A stretch of DNA of 64,000 nt from NCBI GenBank assembly GCA_950295325.1, contig OX485803.1, positions 64,931,554-64,995,553 on the forward strand. Direction: 5' to 3'. Position numbers and translations under genes: made by a program. Position 1 is the stretch's first letter. Each line of letters opens with the position of its first letter. This DNA is from Polytrichum commune. Lineage: Eukaryota; Streptophyta; Polytrichopsida; Polytrichales; Polytrichaceae. The notes beneath the pieces were generated by a model, which was not told the DNA's origin, did no database searches, and saw only the letters and a list, made by a program, of their open reading frames with translations. Shown piece by piece: positions 14,201 through 27,460 of the stretch.

Positions 14201-15866
14201 AATTGCGTGCAAGCCCTTTTGTGTACAAACATGGTCATCAACAATGAAATTGTTAAAATAATAACCGAATTGAAAAGCACCCACCACTCAAGATTGCGTC
14301 ACCTCCGGAACCAAGAAATGAAGCATGGCAGGGGGAAATCAAGAAGTATAGGTCTATAAGGATTGAAATTTCCAATCAAAAGAATTGTGAGATCTATGTG
14401 TGAGGACAAATTGCAAATCAAGAAGAGACATCAACAACTTCATAATAGTAGTATGCATATCCAACAATCCCAAAACCGTTCAACGTCCACCTAAACCCAA
14501 AGATTGAACAATGCAACATTTGTTTTGAAACCAAGGTTTAAAACGGTTAACTTGAGTTTACTTAGGTTGACTGATTGATGAATTTGCTATGCACTCCCAT
14601 ATCCCAAGCCAAGTCCTTAGTGTTAGTCCCATCTCTTGCTTGCATTAGTTACCTCTATTATATGACAAACTGGGCCTAAAAATGTCGTATTACAAGTGTC
14701 GTAGTTGTAATATCGGTGTAAATTTAGCACTAGAAAGTTTGATCAATGGGAAATGCGTTGTACAATTGAGGTGTCGTATCATGGGGGGTTAGATTGTATC
14801 TACATGATTCTAAATGTGTTGATTATTGCATGCGGAGTGTGGTCTAGTTTGCACTATTCTAGCACATTAGCACACAAGATAATGTCATAAACACATCCAA
14901 GTTAGCATTTACATTATTACTTATGTTAATTGAATAGTTTATTTTATATTCCACGATGATTTGTAATTCATTCATCATTTGTGTGACTAACTCAACATCA
15001 TAAACAACACTTATAATGATAGTCCATTTGGTGGTCATATAGAAGCTCATATGATGGACACTTTGAGCACTACAACCTTTATGTAACTTGCGTTGTGTGA
15101 CATTTGACTTCTTCGACCCTTCTCTTGCATTCAACTCCCACCACCCAAAACTTGCATTGTATGACTCTTGAGTTCTATAATACCTCTCTTGTGTGTCTCC
15201 TTGTTGTAGTTTTTCACCAAAAAAAAATAGAATAAAAAATAGAAATCAAATCAAATCAATTAAAAACATGCTTGTAATGGAGCTTGTACACCCCTCTGAG
15301 CTTGACCCCGCACACCCTTGTTTGTTGTGTGATAGATGAGAGAGAGGAGATCAAAATGAGCTCCCCACCCCCACCCCATTAGGGTTTAGGGAATGTCTTA
15401 CTTTCTTTCCTAAGGGTTGCCTGCACAGGATGAAATATGGATTCTCATGAATGAAATTCACCTCATTTCTTGAACTAGTGATTACTCTCACATGATAGAT
15501 ATTGTTCTCATAAGGCAAAGATCATAAGGTCTCCCTAAAGTCTACACAATAAATTGGCATTTGTTGGTAAACTTGCAAAATATTATCTCAACTAGCTATA
15601 GATTTTTCTTTTGGAATATTTGTACATGTATGTTACTTATAATATTCTCTTATAAAATTATAATAGCTAGTAGGCTATGTTTTTTAAATAAAATTATCAA
15701 GTACGGATTCCATCCTTTGTTAATTGACATTTTATTGTAAATTTTACTTTTGAAAAATAAATGTCACCATGTGTTATATTCCACCCTCTTTTGGAAAGTA
15801 TTGGAAGTGTGCCCCCCCCCCCCCCCCCTCGTGGTTGTCTACATCAAACGGACGCAACACGATCTA
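14200..15866. other. no gene seen
   Basis: AT-rich; the left edge may hold the unreadable HTH part of Tigger. Nothing else recognised up to the LINE target duplication. Confidence 0.5.
15812..15828. repeat. 17-base C run
   Basis: Pure poly-C about 40 bases left of the LINE target duplication. Similar runs occur at 20654-20669 (C16), 36832-36847 (G16), and shorter ones near 9871, 44092, 45171 and 55366. Confidence 0.9.
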
Positions 15867-15880
15867 CCAACACTATCAAA

Positions 15881-16055
15881 AGAAGAAGAACTCCGGCCCC
15901 TTTTAGGGGCCGGAGTGAATAGAGTGTCTGTTCATAAGACATCCTAAGCCATACCCCAAGGTAATGGCGTTGGGTGTAATACTACTTCACCCTTTTAAGG
16001 GAGTAGACACTATGTTAGTAACTAGTGATTTTTTACCAGTTTAACCGGTGGGATG
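15881..16055 (-). other. LINE 3' UTR module with CCGG hairpin and (TTC)n tail
   Basis: On the element strand the last 175 bases contain a conserved box around GAACAGACACT followed by TATTCACTCCGG and a hairpin CTCCGGCCCC-TAAAA-GGGGCCGGAG, then TTC repeats. A further AGTGTCT/AGACACT pair can fold around the middle of the module. The same module recurs at 33877-33961 and 44487-44640, in both cases right at the 3' junction of an insertion. It is therefore the likely recognition signal for this element's reverse transcriptase. Confidence 0.85.
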
Positions 16056-16090
16056 GGCTTTGGGGGTGAATATGTTGAGTCCTTTAGGAT

Positions 16091-17478
16091 TTAAGTATAG
16101 TTTTGTAAATTATTGATGGGTTGCTTATTCTCTATCCGTCTTTTGTGGATTAGTATTGAGTGTGCATATTGTATGGCGATTATGTTGATTTGTTGAAATG
16201 TGTGCCTAATTTGTGATGTAGGTAGTTTTAGTTGTGTTTCTAATGCCTTCATCGAGGGGATGTGAGTTGTGGCTCTGGCTCCTGATGCTAGTACTATGAG
16301 TGGGGCTACCTTCCATCCTCTTGTAGTGAGGTTGTCAATAAGTGGTTGATATTTCATTGTTTTTCTTTCTAGTGTTTCGGCAGAGAACCTGTCATTACAG
16401 TATGTGAATTCTATGTATTGTATAGTGACTTCTTGTGTGGGTGCTTCTGGTGGCGGCAAATTGTATGGATGACCGATGACACATAATAGGTCGGGTTTGA
16501 GCCGAGCATTGCAATGACATCGTTGGGTGTCGCATGTGCATGGTAGTAGCCATGCGGGTACGGTGTTTTCTTGTGGGGAGTCGTTGTATACTCCTGCATT
16601 CATAAGTATATAATGTCTGGTACGTTCATTTGAGATGAGAAGTTTACGGATTTCCCAAACGGCTTTGTTATGTCTATTTGTGATTAGTGCGTGGATATGT
16701 TGTTGTTTACATTTAAGAAGTACATGTAACCATGTATCTGCTTCTAATGTGTTACAAATTGGGCATGTGTGGGATGGGTATGCGATTCTACCAAAGAATA
16801 GTTGTTTCCTGGCGTGTCCCATATATTGTCCAGTTCTAAATTTTACTAGGCATGTTTTTTGTTTATCTGTGATGGCCGGGTTGTTCCAAAAGTCATTTGA
16901 TAGTGGTTTGTCTATGTCTTTGTTGTCAAGCCATTTGTGTAATTGGTGTGTTTGGGATGCCATAATTGTTAGGTTGTGCTTTTTGTCATATTTAAGGATG
17001 TATTTTCCGATGTGTCGGATGGGGCCTTTATTTGGTGTGTCTTGCATTGAGTGCCACCAGTTTTTTTGGAGATAATATGGAGTGGGGTGGGCATGTTCGT
17101 GTGTTGCTAGGGCATATTGTGTACTAGTGTACATCCCATTTTAGCTAGTTTATCAGCTTGTTCATTGCCACTTATGTTCGTGTGGGCTTTGACTTTATGA
17201 AGTGTGGTGGTTTGTGTGCGGGCTTGTAACATTTTTACTATAGATTCAAGTATTTTCTTGTTTGGGTGGCTGTTGTGTAAGGTTGGATGTTTTGTTTGTG
17301 TGTTTATGAGGTATAAAACGTTGAGACAATCCATAAAAATATGTGCGGGTTCATTATGATATGTGGTAGTAAGGAGGCGGAGGGTGTGGTGTATAGCCAT
17401 GAGTTCTGCTCTTAGAATATTTTGGAGTCCTGGTAGTCTTTCTGCAATTTTAAGATTTTTGAAAGGGTTATATATACC
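16091..17478 (-). pseudogene. LINE ORF2 C-terminal part: RNase H, zinc knuckle, R2-type endonuclease
   Basis: Read from 17478 downward the frame is open. It holds the RNase H segment with LRAELMAI (catalytic Glu), IFMDCLNVL (catalytic Asp) and KVKAHTNISGNEQADKLA. A single frameshift near 17107-17134 leads into a 347-codon frame ending at 16091. In that frame a C-x2-C-x9-H-x4-C knuckle lies at residues 124-142 and RHN at 154-156. A PD-(D/E)XK-like set follows: KPD 213-215, E242 in IEFTYC, RK 257-258, KY 261-262, then GWKVAPLIVL. This order (CCHC, RHN, PD, acidic strand, KY) is that of the restriction-like endonuclease of R2-type LINEs. Four extra cysteines (199, 201, 206, 208) sit between RHN and PD. 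Reverse transcriptase and the first RNase H Asp are lost through the 5' truncation. Confidence 0.88.
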
Positions 17479-17492
17479 CCAACACTATCAAA

Positions 17493-19755: not shown

Positions 19756-20450
19756 TGAGTATCTTGAGTGTATCTTGAGGATAACGTCTCCTTGTTCCTT
19801 TTCAGAGGTGGGCTCTATACTTATGGGTGACATTGAGTGGAGGGGAAACCTTTGCACGGACACCTACTTATGGAATGGTCAATCACATAATAACCCCAAA
19901 ACAATATATCAAAGTCGAGGTCAAGCACTTCAGTCCTTTAAGAGAGTTGGGGTAGGGACCTAAAGCTCTCCTTATTGGCACGAGCATGTGATAATGATTG
20001 TATATTGATAATATTTGAGAACTATGTCACACCATCATTAAAGAAAAAATCTAGGTACAATTATGGTAAGATCCTTAACCTTGACATTTTGGTTATGTCA
20101 TGTGATGATAAGTGGAAGAGATGTGTGTGTATGAGTAGGTTGCCGGGTACCTGTGTATTCCAAAGAAAACCCAACTGAGATGTATATTATGTACTCCATG
20201 GTAAAATGATAATAATAGTAATAATAATCTATTTAAAGTACTATTATAAATATTAATCACAATCCTAATATTATGCTATTAGAACTAATGTATAATATAA
20301 TATATGAATTAATCATAAATTATATAGTTCTTAAGTTAATGTGGTTTACTATTGTTTTAACGTAATTGAATAGTAATTGTTGCATTGAAAATCATAATCA
20401 CGCATATTTTGAAAGCATTGAACCTGCACTCAAACTACACTCAAACTACA

Positions 20451-20473
20451 ACCCTAAACCCTAAACCCTAAAC
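20451..20473 (+). repeat. interstitial telomere-type repeat (CCCTAAA)3
   Basis: Three consecutive CCCTAAA units, plant-type telomere sequence, sit just left of the LINE fragment at 20.5 kb. Confidence 0.8.
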
Positions 20474-21670
20474 AAGTAAACACTCCAACCTCTTGACGAA
20501 CTAAATCACCCCTCTCTCAACTATACGGATGCAACAAAAAAACACGTCATCAACACCGAAAATATTCAAGATATCATAACAAACCCATAACCCCTCTCAT
20601 TTCACTAGCCTACCCACCACTCCTCGTCCCACAACACTTCTACAACAATCTTACCCCCCCCCCCCCCCCACAACATCTACTGGAGGCTCCCAAGCAAATA
20701 AAATATCCTCCAGTCCATATTAATTGTTGTACTAACATCCTTCCAAAACACACAAAACAACATCTACACCTACTAGATCTTCACATACAATCTCAATTCC
20801 CTCCACCTCATTGGTAACCAAACTCATTGCCACTCACCCCAACCAAACCATCTCCATAAACTCCTCTTTACCTAAATCATCAACCTCCTCCTACAACAAC
20901 AAAAAGTGTTAATGGCCTCCACAAAATTCAAGCCCAACCATGCATCTTTGACGATGACGACAACAACAAGAACAACAAGCCAATAATAGAACTTGAAAGC
21001 AAGAAAAATGTTGTGTGGGACATATTATATATATATATATATATATATATAACTACAATTGCTTGTGGCTAAATATGAATTAGGGCAACTACAAGATAAA
21101 GCCATTTCTCTCTCACCAAACTAGGGTATGCCCTACCCAAACCATAAACCTCTTTTGGCACTCACTGCGCTTTGATGCTCCGAACTCAACTCCGCCCACC
21201 AATAAACTCATTTGTCACTGCACAACTTGAACACATCCAAGAGGATTACAATAAACAACTCATTGTCTAAGTCATCCTATATATCCATAAGTAAGACAAG
21301 TCTAGATAGGCTCTCTCCAACTATTCATGGACCACCCTCACATGCCAAGACACTCAAATAACACAAAAATATGAAGCTCAAATATGCACAACACATGTGC
21401 AATCTTCTCAAACAAATATTCTTAGGCCGATACAAACACCCATCGTTGCATGTCACTTATGCCAACCAAACCACATAGACACATTGGCCCATCTTCTCAC
21501 TATGTGCAACAACCAAATAATAAAATTTGCCCAACATACTTGGGAGTCCAACAATCTTTATTGCACAAATTAATCATACCATGTGCAATGTCATGGAGGC
21601 ATGGGCACTGTCATGGAGGCATGCACATATAAGGTAAATCCACCATACAACATCATCCTCCACTAATTAT
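20474..21670 (+). pseudogene. decayed fragment of the same LINE family
   Basis: The strand is strongly A/C-rich like the LINE coding strand and carries many stops. Around 21310-21550, switching frames recovers LSPTIHGPPSHAK, KLKYAQHMCNLLKQIFLGRY and then CHLC...H...C. These line up with LSNDFWNNPAITD, VKFRTGQYMGHARKQLFFGR and CPIC...H...C of the copy at 16.7 kb. The CCHC knuckle is at 21451-21507. Positions 20474-21170 are presumably older upstream LINE sequence interrupted by a 16-base C run and an (AT)n tract, but no domain could be read there. Confidence 0.7.
21022..21051. repeat. (AT)n microsatellite
   Basis: About 14 AT units inside the decayed LINE fragment. Confidence 0.9.
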
Positions 21671-23925
21671 AAGAGCATGTCTTGGGGAATTTATTTAAAA
21701 CACACGCACACACACACACACAATTTGAGGTGGCACTACATGAATGCCATTGAAACTTCCCACAACAACCTAATAGAAGGCTCTCAAACATTACCCTCTA
21801 GTCCATATAGTCCTACATACAAACAAAATGTTGTTCACACTCCAACTTTTTTTTATTACATCCACATGGTTGAAACAATATTAGCATCTTCACATGGAAT
21901 AAACCATACATAAGATTTTGATTCTAAATTTAAGGGAAAATACATATCAAAGTATCAAATAATAATTTTGTGTCCCAAGCTTTAAAATTATGACATGTAA
22001 AACACAATTTGAAGGATTGGAAAAACATTAAATAAAGAATTGGAAATGATGAATTTTTTATGGATGTTATATAGAAATGTCATTACTAAACAATGATGGC
22101 ATTCTATGTACATTCTAAGTTGTAATATTTAATGTATTTCTCCATATGTGCACCCTAATATGAACTCCTTTTGTTAATTGGAGAATCTCACCGCAAAAAT
22201 AAAGCTATTTCAAGAAGGATACATTTTAAAGATATTAACTAAAATCGAAGACAAAGACAAAAATAAATTTGTTGATTTGTCTCCAAAGTCTCATCGGGCC
22301 TTGGTGATGTTTAAAGGTTGAATTCCTCACCAAAACCATGCTTAGCAAACGCAACCTCAAAAACTACCAATTTCTTACATTCAAAAACAACACCTACGAA
22401 TCAACCCAAACACAACTCGACAACCAGAGGGTCTGATGGTTTTTTCAAAGGTGACCACATCCAATGTGATGCAATAATGCTTGTCCCATGAGACTAACCT
22501 CGAATTGGCAAGTGGTGGAAATTGCCGTTTTGTTTATGGGAGAGTGTGGTAGAGAGAGCCCGCCTTGAATTTGGAAGGGTTTCACCAAGCTCTCCACTAA
22601 CCACCTCAAAAGCTCCTCAAAAAATTGGCCCTCACCACCCATCATGATTGCCTAACTCATGTCCACAATTTGTTCATGGGTGTCCAACCTTTGTGCACAA
22701 TTCATTCATGAAATGTCTAAGCCTTTTGCTTAATTTCTTAAGTTGCCTGATTGTATTCACCACCCACTCACATACTAAGTACAACGAAGTATGGCTAGTC
22801 ATCATTATTCATCAATTAACCAACCAATCTCTTACATCAAGGTACCACTAAGGTACATCACACTCTCCATCATCCGTTATCAACAGTAGATGTGCATATC
22901 TTGGATGCTATGACAACCATCAAGTGTAGGATATGCTCCAAATATAATATGATATGTATAGATTTTGGGTCTATTCACGTTTGTGATGTTAATTACTTTC
23001 ACTAGTCAATCTATATGGAGATGTCAATGTCGTCTTGCCTCCCATAACTTTTGGTATCCCTAGTTTATATGAAAATGGAATCATAACGACAACCATACAT
23101 GGTGTACCAAAGAAACAACAAATACATGAAACAAGTTTGGATTAACATGTCAAGGATCTTCATGTGCCGATCATCTCCAATGCTACATTGACTTATGTGA
23201 TTATCTACTTTGATATAGAGGACTTTGCAATAACAACAAGTGGAGCGGCATTACATTGACCCTTTCTCGAGTTGAGCTTTTACCCCATGATAAATCATAA
23301 TTGCAATGCCATATTTGTCACATCATGTCCTTATCTAGGTGTGTACAATCACCCAATAGAGTATACATTGAGTCTATCAACATGGCTTACCGATGTATGG
23401 CAAACGAGGTCAACAAAATTCCCATTGCAAAAAAATTGCAAATATCATAGCAACTAGTAAGTAATTTATACTTTATGACCTCTTTTAGACACTAGCTTCT
23501 TGAGAACTAAACCACATCTAAGATTCATCATTGGAGGTAGCAAGCAACAAGTTCTCCACATTAACATCCTTTACTTAAATGAAAATTATGCCAAGAATAT
23601 TGTATGTTTCATTCGTAGTAATATGTATACTATGGTCAATATGATAATGCTAAAAAGCCACTCTTGTTCCAATTTTGTCCATGATAGATGATTTCGTTGG
23701 CATTCAAAAGATAAGGTATTTGCCTTTAAAGTGTCCATGACATGACATGTACTGGTATGACTATGTTTTGAGATTGTTTTCATCACTCACCTTCAATCAC
23801 AAGAATAGATTCATAATGCAACCTAAGGTTCTTCCTCTTACTTATGGTTAGTAGTGTGGTCTCTTAGGATTTTTTTTTTTTGCAATTGTGAAGGTTTTCT
23901 TGCTCATGAGAACAATACTAGAGGA
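21671..23925. other. no gene seen
   Basis: A/C-rich composition continues to about 22430 and may be further LINE sequence, with a (CA)n run at 21700-21721. 22430-23925 shows nothing recognisable. Confidence 0.45.
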
Positions 23926-25293: not shown

Positions 25294-26440
25294 TTAGTGT
25301 ATGTCGTAATAACATGGTAATGTAGTGGTTATTTCTATTTTTGGTGTATCATTGAATATTCCTACACCAACTATGTTTCCATTGCCATCTTTGTATGGAG
25401 TTGTGAATGAGCCATCTATGTAGTATGAGTGATGAGGGAGATATCTTAGTGGGAGGAGGTTGGTAACTTGTAGTGGTAGTGGTGGTGTGTTTTGGGTGGT
25501 GAATTTAGGAGATGGGGGTGGGCTCTTAACCACACCTTAGTAGTTTTGATGGTTGGTGGTGGTACTGGGTGGGATTATGGGTGAGTAAGTAGTAGTATTG
25601 ATTGTGAGTAGAGGATTATGAAAAGTTTGGAGGAATTTATGTATTTGGGATTGAATCGGCGTGTATGAGACAATGAAGATGGAGGTGACAAGAGGCTTTT
25701 TATCGTTGTAATATGCATGAAGGGTGGGGAGGTGTGTGTATTGAAAGGTAAGAGGGGGTAAGAGGGGGAGTGTTTTGATGACGATAATATACGTTTGGTG
25801 GAGGACGTTGGTTTGGTTGGGCAACTAGTCTTCATGTGTGATGACAATAATAATTTTGCTATTCAAGTTGTCTTTGGCTATCATTTTAGCCAGTTTGATG
25901 GTTTGGGGGATGAGGTTGGCATTTGTAATGTGGGGATATCCATGTCTGCCCATTGTGTGGAGTAGGTTGGGCCTAGCGAACGTAAGATTTTCTCACTTTC
26001 TCGTTAAGACTAGTATTGTGTGAATGTAGTGGGCATGTTTGGGGGCTTGAGAAATAGGAATGTGTGAGTTGGAAGGTGGTTATTAGGGTGTTTAAGATCG
26101 GTGATGGAAAAATATGGTGGTTGTGTATGTGGTTGTGGATATAGTATTTGGTAGTTTTGTAGGTAGTGGGTTGACATATATATTAGTTTGGAGGAGAATT
26201 TATGTTGCAAAGTCCGTGCGGGGGGAGGAGGGTTCAAGTTGAGTGTGGGCATGTTTATATTTACCAAGAATCTTTCCCATTGCCAAAATAATCTTTTAAG
26301 TGATATGGTGGCTTCATAGTTGTTAGCTTGGTGATGGTGTTTACTCTGACATCTACTAGGTTTGAGTGTTTCATGCCAAGTGTTATGTTCATCTTTTGTA
26401 ATTTTTCCATGCATGCTCTTCTTGTCTCCCCTTTGCAAAT
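25294..26440 (-). pseudogene. LINE fragment: N-terminal half of RNase H and unassigned upstream region
   Basis: Reading downward, one frame with two stops (near 25535 and 25825) covers 25960-25294. The end of it is an RNase H start, YYIDGSFTTPYKDGNGN then IVGVGIFND, with the first catalytic Asp at 25414-25416. The following residues (GIFN...KIEI...LP) align with GIYN...KIAE...LPG at the truncated edge of the 17.48-kb copy, so the two fragments complement each other in one family. Upstream (25850-26440) lies a hydrophobic-strand-rich stretch, NLIPQTIKLAKMIAKDN then SKIIIVITHED, that I cannot assign. No reverse transcriptase motif (YADD or FADD) was seen. Confidence 0.72.
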
Positions 26441-27460
26441 GTTTTTAAATCCGGTATCAAAACGAACAATGACATGAAATGCATTTGAGAGGCCGGTTTC
26501 TTGGTCTACTTTTCTCGCCATGGGAATTGAGTGAAATGTAGGTGGTTACATGGGATAGCATCTGGTCGTTCATTCAAGTAGAGTCATTGCGGTATTCTTG
26601 GGAATATCCACCTCATTTAATGATGTGTCCACCACAAGGAACTTTTAATCCCCGCGTCTCTCTTTCTTGAACAATTTGCCTTGGTATATATGTTGCGTGG
26701 GCTTTGTGAATTGGATATCCAAACCACATTTGAGTGAACAGTTCTATGCTTGGAATTGTGATTTCACATTATGCATGACTTTTTGTGGCCTCAAATTGCG
26801 GGGAATGTTGATGAGGACAACACGGTGTGCACTTCGGTGGTTGACTTCCTTCTCTTGGCATTGTGTGGGATGCTTGCGTATTGCTTCTTCGGCTTTTGTA
26901 ATGTAGGGTGGATGGTGTGTTGGCTGCTAGGTGTATGATGTCATATATGTTGGCAATTTGCAATGGATTGGTATTCATGAGAGAAGATTGGCAGTGACTT
27001 ACCCCCATGCTTGGGGGAGATATCCTCCAACTCCATATCAAGGTCGTAATCATGATAAGAGGTCATATTTGGCTTCTTTAATGCTTATGTTAATTGATTT
27101 ACTACTTCATTATGGCCCTCCCCTTATGGTTAGTGTTGAATGTGAACACCTTATGTAGGTGTGAGTTTGGTTTGAAGGGCGAGTTATTTTGGCTTGAGAG
27201 AGGTCTGCATTGGGTTTCTACTTGGCGATGTGTGGTTGTCTGCTTGTGCCGAAGGGGAGGTGGCCAATTTTGGCAAGGTGCTATATGATGTGAGAGGGGT
27301 GTAGACTTGGATTTGTAGCTTTAAGTGTTTATTTTCTTGCACCAGTAGGGAGGTGTCCAAAATCGGTGAAGAACGGTTGGAAGGATAACCACATTTTTCA
27401 AAATTTTGACGTTGTATGATTGGTTTCTTGTGTTTGGGCCGGCTTGGCGAGGTCATGGGT
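26441..27460 (-). other. possible further upstream part of the LINE fragment
   Basis: The same strand continues A/C-rich. Short open stretches exist at 26261-26521 (starting MARKVDQETG) and 27184-27456 (containing LVQENKHLKLQIQ, a possible coiled-coil segment). Neither matches a family I recognise. They may be N-terminal LINE sequence or a different decayed element. Confidence 0.3.

Follow-up and report, generated by a model that had tools for sequence, protein, structure and literature searches.

A 5'-truncated LINE insertion in Polytrichum commune and its wider family, with two predicted endonucleases, a CAPAM-like domain and StopGo/2A-like motifs

Among the non-LTR retrotransposons (LINEs), R2 elements have a single open reading frame (ORF), carry neither an APE-type endonuclease (APE) nor RNase H and insert into 28S rDNA. 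Dualen/RandI elements have a domain order that matches that of the element described here, and the 2005 description of Dualen from Chlamydomonas reportedly includes a cysteine protease. An APE together with a PD-(D/E)XK endonuclease and RNase H is stated for the Dualen/RandI group (PMC3636483, PMC4640811), and the position of Dualen has been used to argue that APE-type LINEs arose via replacement of the R2-type endonuclease (RLE) by an APE (PMC4640811). LINEs with an RLE are described as carrying a CX2-3CX7-8HX4C knuckle and a displaced catalytic lysine that sits in a KX2KY motif, and the RH residues of R2Bm are reported to be required for DNA binding and cleavage (PMC5678591). A search of the openly licensed literature for RandI in bryophytes brought up no LINE of the kind described here.

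The window, the whole 64,000-nucleotide stretch of Polytrichum commune DNA that was analysed, contains on its minus strand (15880-17478) a 5'-truncated LINE insertion of ~1.6 kb with a target-site duplication, a 3' hairpin and a (TTC)n tail, which codes for most of RNase H followed by a CCHC knuckle and the signature of an RLE. The window contains exactly two occurrences of CCAACACTATCAAA, starting at 15867 and 17479, which constitute a 14-bp target-site duplication (17479-17492 beyond the truncated 5' end and 15867-15880 at the 3' end, where its final base is common to the tail), so that the boundaries given in the original prediction were right.

Read from the truncated end, the insertion begins with the C-terminal ~121 residues of RNase H (17119-17481, minus strand), the start of the domain being lost; this piece gives a 90% tblastn match to residues 1707-1827 of P0001, the stop-free frame of 2,169 codons from copy L009 in which the Pfam RNase_H match covers residues 1681-1823, and the minus-strand ORF at 17107-17484 itself matches RNase_H with an E value of 4.1e-13. 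The reading frame changes at 17113-17119 between two tblastn pieces of one protein, and comparison with the unbroken stretch of another copy indicates that this single frameshift (~17119 to 17113) joins the window frames. The knuckle and RLE region follows (16091-17113, minus strand), comprising the C-terminus of ORF2 with its stop codon, and is 82.6% identical to residues 1830-2168 of P0001. It belongs to a minus-strand frame of 349 residues (16091-17140), for which a Pfam scan matched no family and which carries the C-x2-C-x9-H-x4-C knuckle (16709-16765), the RHN motif at the start of the RLE (16667-16675), the PD of the PD-(D/E)XK core within KPD (16490-16495), the second acidic residue of this core, the E of IEFTYC (16409-16411), and K-x2-K-Y, the displaced catalytic lysine motif of LINE RLEs (16349-16363). 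Every motif listed in the original prediction, from RNase H to RK..KY, is present on the minus strand together with the single frameshift. The 3' untranslated region (15916-16090) is followed by the terminal hairpin CTCCGGCCCC-TAAAA-GGGGCCGGAG (15891-15915; fold z-score of -4.0 for the window 3' end) and by the (TTC)n tail read from the sequence (15880-15890), all on the minus strand; a 230-bp 3' query matched 40 scored places, among 1,014 candidates, with 81-100% identity. A run of 17 C lies at 15812-15828 of the plus strand, ~40 bases beyond the 3' end of the insertion.

The genome searched comprises 408 Mb in 64 contigs, of which C1-C7 add up to about 406 Mb; seven chromosomes would agree with several mosses. 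Contig C8 holds the plastid gene rbcL, after which come tRNA-Arg(CCG) and a frame recognisable by eye as accD, and this tRNA placed between the two genes is an arrangement of bryophytes. The 349-residue frame has 116 scored relatives in it with 66-100% identity (5,703 first-look candidates), and the full RLE signature, written as a regular expression, was met in 22 of 58 records (some being the same insertion twice) and in none of one shuffled set, which argues that the window frame is not a product of chance. Thirteen copies were taken with the DNA around the match, and upstream DNA was joined for 11 of these, none of which has an unbroken ORF2. Full-length copies measure 12-13.5 kb and have two ORFs; the elements delimited by target duplications are 12.2, 12.4, 12.75, 13.15, 13.3 and 13.5 kb long. 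Collecting such copies, as had been proposed for checking the prediction, yielded others that carry the APE, reverse transcriptase (RT), RNase H, knuckle and RLE signature in one frame. Matches at C24:11558-13828, on an unplaced contig, and at C3:874345-876615 have equal scores and spacing, and this suggests that C24 is a duplicated (haplotig) contig of the assembly.

Recent activity, which had been read from the nearly intact frame of the window copy, is supported at the level of the family, since L013 and L016 agree at 99% identity along 12.4 kb and a frame of 2,924 codons is open in another copy; the window copy itself, a frameshifted stub of 1.6 kb, lends it no support. A second pair, L009 and L012, is 99% identical over 8.4 kb. 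The last 7.6 kb of six copies (L009, L012, L013, L015, L016 and L017) are about 97% identical, and upstream of this point the same six copies are only 65-83% alike where they can be aligned, outside the two 99% pairs, as if the 5' module, made up of ORF1 and the beginning of ORF2, evolved faster or were exchanged between subfamilies.

Of 17 distinct insertions (20 rows with repeats removed), eight carry a target duplication, its longest match being 12-14 nt, and these matches shrink to 8-13 nt when the bases common to the tail are taken away; in the remaining nine there is no duplication of 12 nt in the stretch examined, outside which the 5' end may fall for some, and L002 has a weak 9-nt candidate. 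As the eight duplicated target sites differ in sequence, insertion is not site-specific. In each of the eight duplications at least the first T also belongs to the end of the (TTC)n tail, a pattern that would fit a pairing of target and tail through one or a few bases during priming. The purine that tends to precede the T at the border of the eight duplications is not taken as a preference, since the choice of the longest match produces it in part. L001-L020 have in common a TTC-type tail and the 3' hairpin, for which the search pattern selects and in which mismatches are scattered; L021, which belongs to another subfamily, does not share them. By reading, some subfamilies have C-G and others T-A at one hairpin pair, where L014 and L015 show a C-A mismatch; L002, L003 and L008 have single changes elsewhere in the hairpin.

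ORF2 codes for ~2,900 residues in the order APE, RT, a domain resembling the CAPAM/PCIF1 methyltransferase, RNase H, CCHC knuckle and RLE signature. In P0001, Pfam matches over the cut-off were obtained for Exo_endo_phos_2 (residues 162-290, E 5.3e-7), RVT_1 (659-925, E 2.5e-26), PCIF1_WW (1410-1525, E 1.6e-9; score 38.1 bits, cut-off 31.1) and RNase_H (1681-1823, E 8.3e-15), with the knuckle and RLE region C-terminal to the last of these. L033, which represents a second family, is open over 2,924 codons (2,900 counted from the ATG) and has RVT_1, PCIF1_WW (1.3e-10) and RNase_H over the cut-off; RNase_H thus lies downstream of the RT in two open frames (8.3e-15 and 3.6e-12), and its D-E-D-H-D set, read by eye in P0001 and L033, is kept. 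The APE was matched by Pfam in one of the three ORF2 frames scanned (P0001, not P0003 or L033), and the APE stretch aligns residue by residue in seven of seven copies (L014 in part), with changes confined to single copies, for example in L017 and L018. No protease family was matched in P0001, P0002, P0003, the ORF2 of L033 or the ORF1 of L017, of which the N-terminal parts are divergent.

Two further stretches of the window deserve mention. An old, decayed relative from the same LINE group lies at 25300-27045 on the minus strand, with pieces of ORF1 (26327-27045), of the CAPAM-like domain (26027-26110) and of RNase H (25300-25521); it lacks the APE and RT, given that only ~220 bp separate the ORF1 and CAPAM-like pieces, and represents either an internal deletion or a non-autonomous derivative. 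On the plus strand, a C-rich, strand-skewed stretch at 20300-21900 contains a C-x2-C-x9-H-x4-C knuckle in the ORF at 21310-21573 and is perhaps a degenerate LINE; tblastn gave no match between it and the studied LINE at E 0.05.

When compared with solved structures, the RT of the element matched R2 (1.8e-26) better than human L1 (1.8e-14), the reverse of an L1 RT from the same genome (human L1 2e-44, R2 1.5e-17). In an unrooted tree of 12 rows from the element, L1 and R2, in which human L1 and R2Bm are long branches flagged by a program warning, five RTs of the element form one group apart from L1 and R2 (support 100/99), the L1 group consists of the human sequence and three from the same genome (99/97), and three R2 sequences group together (97/94). 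Membership of L1 is ruled out by this separate branch, which bears out the expectation that the RT would fall outside the L1 clade, and membership of R2 is ruled out by the two ORFs, the APE, the RNase H and the unspecific target sites, the eight duplicated sites all being different where R2 would target 28S rDNA. The element is like R2 in its CCHC knuckle, in the order of RH, PD, E and KX2KY and in having R2 as the best RT match among solved structures, and unlike it in those same excluding features. With the plant L1 elements (zf-RVT) of the same genome it has in common an RT and an equal knuckle spacing, and the L1 copy L055 has an APE match just below the Pfam cut-off; it differs from them in its separate RT branch and in the CAPAM-like domain, for which L055 gave no match. 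The RLE signature was not seen in the L1 parts L055-L057, which stop soon after the knuckle. No relatives of the element were found in viral contigs (three scans), by tblastn against phages or among PHROGs.

The combination of APE, RT, RNase H and RLE signature agrees with the Dualen-like element of the original prediction. The RT is neither L1 nor R2, as is said of Dualen, and the comparison of the predicted proteins, extending for the RT to L1 and R2, supports a Dualen/RandI ground plan. The feature in the window is probably a copy, 5'-truncated and dead on arrival, of a non-LTR retrotransposon that has this ground plan, measures 12-13.5 kb and lives in a bryophyte host. The element resembles the Chlamydomonas elements in the four domains just named and in an RT that is neither L1 nor R2; it differs from Dualen/RandI in the CAPAM-like domain that separates its RT from RNase H, in its 2A-like motifs, in the overlap of ORF1 with ORF2, in a length of 12-13.5 kb, in its bryophyte host and in giving no protease match. 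The CAPAM-like domain, the 2A-like motifs and the overlap were missed at first reading because they are absent from the window stub.

The unexpected parts of the element are the CAPAM-like domain and the StopGo-like motifs, and it is quite conceivable, if short of probable, that such extra domains are ordinary for Dualen/RandI, went unrecognised in the 2005 Chlamydomonas description, and make the present element a routine member of its group. That RNase H and an APE next to a PD-(D/E)XK endonuclease are already described for the group (PMC3636483, PMC4640811) agrees with this, as does the occurrence of the CAPAM-like domain in two families of the genome, from which it follows that the domain is old in the lineage; against it, no LINE with a CAPAM-like domain was found in the openly licensed literature.

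The CAPAM-like domain is recognised by PF12237, which is labelled as a WW domain in Pfam and is described as a CAPAM-like methyltransferase (PMC7641849). In the genome all 150 scored matches (of 697 candidates) are over the cut-off, and the 20 that were examined all align to the LINE domain, with 55-84% identity to P0005; no match to PF12237 was found in 14 control genomes, a result that is uninformative for plants, as the five controls listed by name for a different family are prokaryotes. PCIF1, a cap-specific adenosine N6-methyltransferase, is the best match among solved structures, although a weak one (E 0.034 with a single sequence and 0.0063 with a profile), and on these matches the domain is assigned as homologous to the CAPAM/PCIF1 methyltransferase domain. 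It is unlike PCIF1 in being embedded in ORF2 and in lacking the catalytic NPPF motif. HMMER aligns NPPF opposite HPHT; all 22 copies read (20 genome matches, P0001 and L033) have His in place of the Asn, the Phe position holds Thr or Asn where read, and the motif as a whole reads HP[HPY]. Ahead of the catalytic loop the segments F-SSP-[IV]TC and RD-FG-G are kept. Asn and Phe mutants of NPPF are reported as standard inactive forms of human PCIF1 (PMC10544176), and the LINE domain is probably disarmed.

Selection nevertheless acts on it. In the copies compared, dN/dS is 0.08-0.10 for the CAPAM-like domain (seven pairs), 0.05-0.07 for the RT (five pairs), 0.04-0.10 for RNase H and 0.06-0.09 for the RLE (seven pairs each), and is higher in the linker between RT and CAPAM-like domain (0.11-0.14, seven pairs) than in the CAPAM-like domain itself. 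For the APE it is 0.05-0.11 in 16 of the 17 finite pairs (21 pairs, four saturated), the young pair L009-L017 giving 0.26, and residues 311-600 of ORF2, with no recognised domain, are under a similar degree of constraint (of four pairs, two are saturated and two give 0.07 and 0.10). Left out of these ranges are two comparisons of the RT with L018 over 32 codons, of which one gave 0.21 and the other was saturated, and the pair L009-L033, which is saturated in four domains and gives 0.10 for the APE, 0.22 for the linker and 0.20 for RNase H. These ratios show purifying selection on both predicted endonucleases and on the CAPAM-like domain. Because NPPF is lost while the domain stays under selection, the domain appears to be kept for a function that is unlikely to be N6-adenosine methylation; with the essential Asn gone and the rest constrained, we infer that it is most likely a non-catalytic RNA- or cap-binding module.

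An active methyltransferase with an altered motif or substrate, which methylates the element's own RNA cap or DNA, is an unlikely reading of the same domain. The strong purifying selection (0.08-0.10) and the two segments kept before the catalytic loop would fit it, and methyltransferases captured by retrotransposons have precedent in charophytes and dinoflagellates, as reported in PMC5890265; those captured enzymes are, however, cytosine DNA methyltransferases shown to be active (PMC5890265), whereas the LINE domain is CAPAM-like and probably inactive, with His for the NPPF Asn in 22 of 22 copies and Thr or Asn at the Phe position, PCIF1 mutants of this kind being reported as inactive (PMC10544176).

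The polyprotein around the CAPAM-like domain may be divided during translation. An ATG lies 5 bases before the ORF1 stop (ATGNNTAG) in eight of ten copies, and is in frame with ORF2 as it stands in L010 and L013-L017 and out of frame in L012 and L018; L033 also has the stop-start overlap, in frame, which brings the totals to nine of 11 copies with the overlap and seven of 11 in frame. L011 lacks the overlap, and in L009 ORF1 was not identified. The arrangement fits a termination-reinitiation mechanism for the putative ORF1/ORF2 coupling.

The motif [DGCN][IV]xxNPGP occurs 22 times in 12 copies, always in the sense of the element, against 0.1 per shuffle. One to three such motifs are found per ORF2, upstream of the APE in all 11 copies checked (L021 lying outside this check). 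Position 14 (p14) is E in six of the 22 motifs (six of 12 copies), which thus have the StopGo/2A core (D/G/C/N)(V/I)ExNPGP, H in ten, Q in five and K in one. With H at p14, StopGo activity in native contexts is reported to exceed 95%, and for E14Q it is given as 26-56% (PMC12846837). StopGo/2A is known from trypanosome and sea urchin LINEs and from those of other species (PMC4981915), and natural StopGo is reported to be missing from plant viruses (PMC12846837). The motifs resemble known examples in their GD[IV]xxNPGP sequence and the hydrophobic lead before it, and are unlike them in that there are often several per protein, that p14 is often H or Q, and that they come from the plant lineage. 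Judged by these motifs, the ribosome may split the ORF2 protein into several.

The second endonuclease is assigned from residues. The knuckle C/C/H/C, RHN, PD, E and both K and the Y of K-x2-K-Y are invariant in seven of seven aligned sequences, down to 64% identity, and the RH, PD, E and KX2KY residues serve to assign a predicted C-terminal PD-(D/E)XK endonuclease. L005, which has stops, is missed by the signature pattern. The x9 spacing in the knuckle is one more than the x7-8 given for RLE LINEs (PMC5678591), and L1 elements of the same genome have the identical C-x2-C-x9-H-x4-C spacing, so that the knuckle alone is not specific. In phmmer against the PDB the window protein had one match only, unrelated, at E 0.7; the RLE alignment profile matched no solved structure up to E 10, and AlphaFold run on the window protein alone, as a single sequence, gave a pLDDT of 36. 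That the element is an L1- or I-type LINE with APE and RNase H, which uses one endonuclease and has a knuckle region that merely resembles an RLE, is very improbable: the knuckle it has in common with the L1 (zf-RVT) elements of its genome, the lack of a PDB profile match, the low pLDDT and the target duplications, which reach 12-14 bp, lie at unspecific sites and resemble those of APE-type LINEs, are outweighed by an RT that lies outside L1 and nearer R2 by score, by the invariance of RH, PD, E and K-x2-K-Y (7/7) with a whole signature absent from the shuffled set, and by the dN/dS of 0.06-0.09 in the RLE region.

Taken with both endonucleases, the element may be pictured as follows. Ribosomes that end ORF1 would reinitiate at the overlapping start of ORF2, and the StopGo/2A-like motifs would free the N-terminal parts of ORF2, which are hydrophobic and change fast, from the APE-RT-RLE enzyme. 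This enzyme would bind the 3' hairpin and nick a loosely specified site with one endonuclease, the RNA would be copied by target-primed reverse transcription and removed by RNase H, and the second endonuclease would cut the other strand, with the CAPAM-like domain serving as a non-catalytic RNA- or cap-binding module. A further-reaching reading, in which a cap methyltransferase captured by a land-plant LINE lineage has become a disarmed cap reader, two endonucleases serve one DNA strand each and StopGo splits the polyprotein, is tentative and rather unlikely.

If it were true, the element's own mRNA would be gripped at the 5' cap by the reader inside the polymerase and at the 3' hairpin by the RT, and copying would be restricted to full-length, capped self-RNA. 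For the recognition of full-length self-RNA, a physical basis is suggested by the presence of a cap-methyltransferase-like domain within a polymerase. With both nucleases under equal selection, it becomes testable whether each serves one strand during integration, a step of LINE biology that is unsettled. A natural StopGo in the plant lineage would extend to it a recoding mechanism that has been reported as unused by plant viruses.
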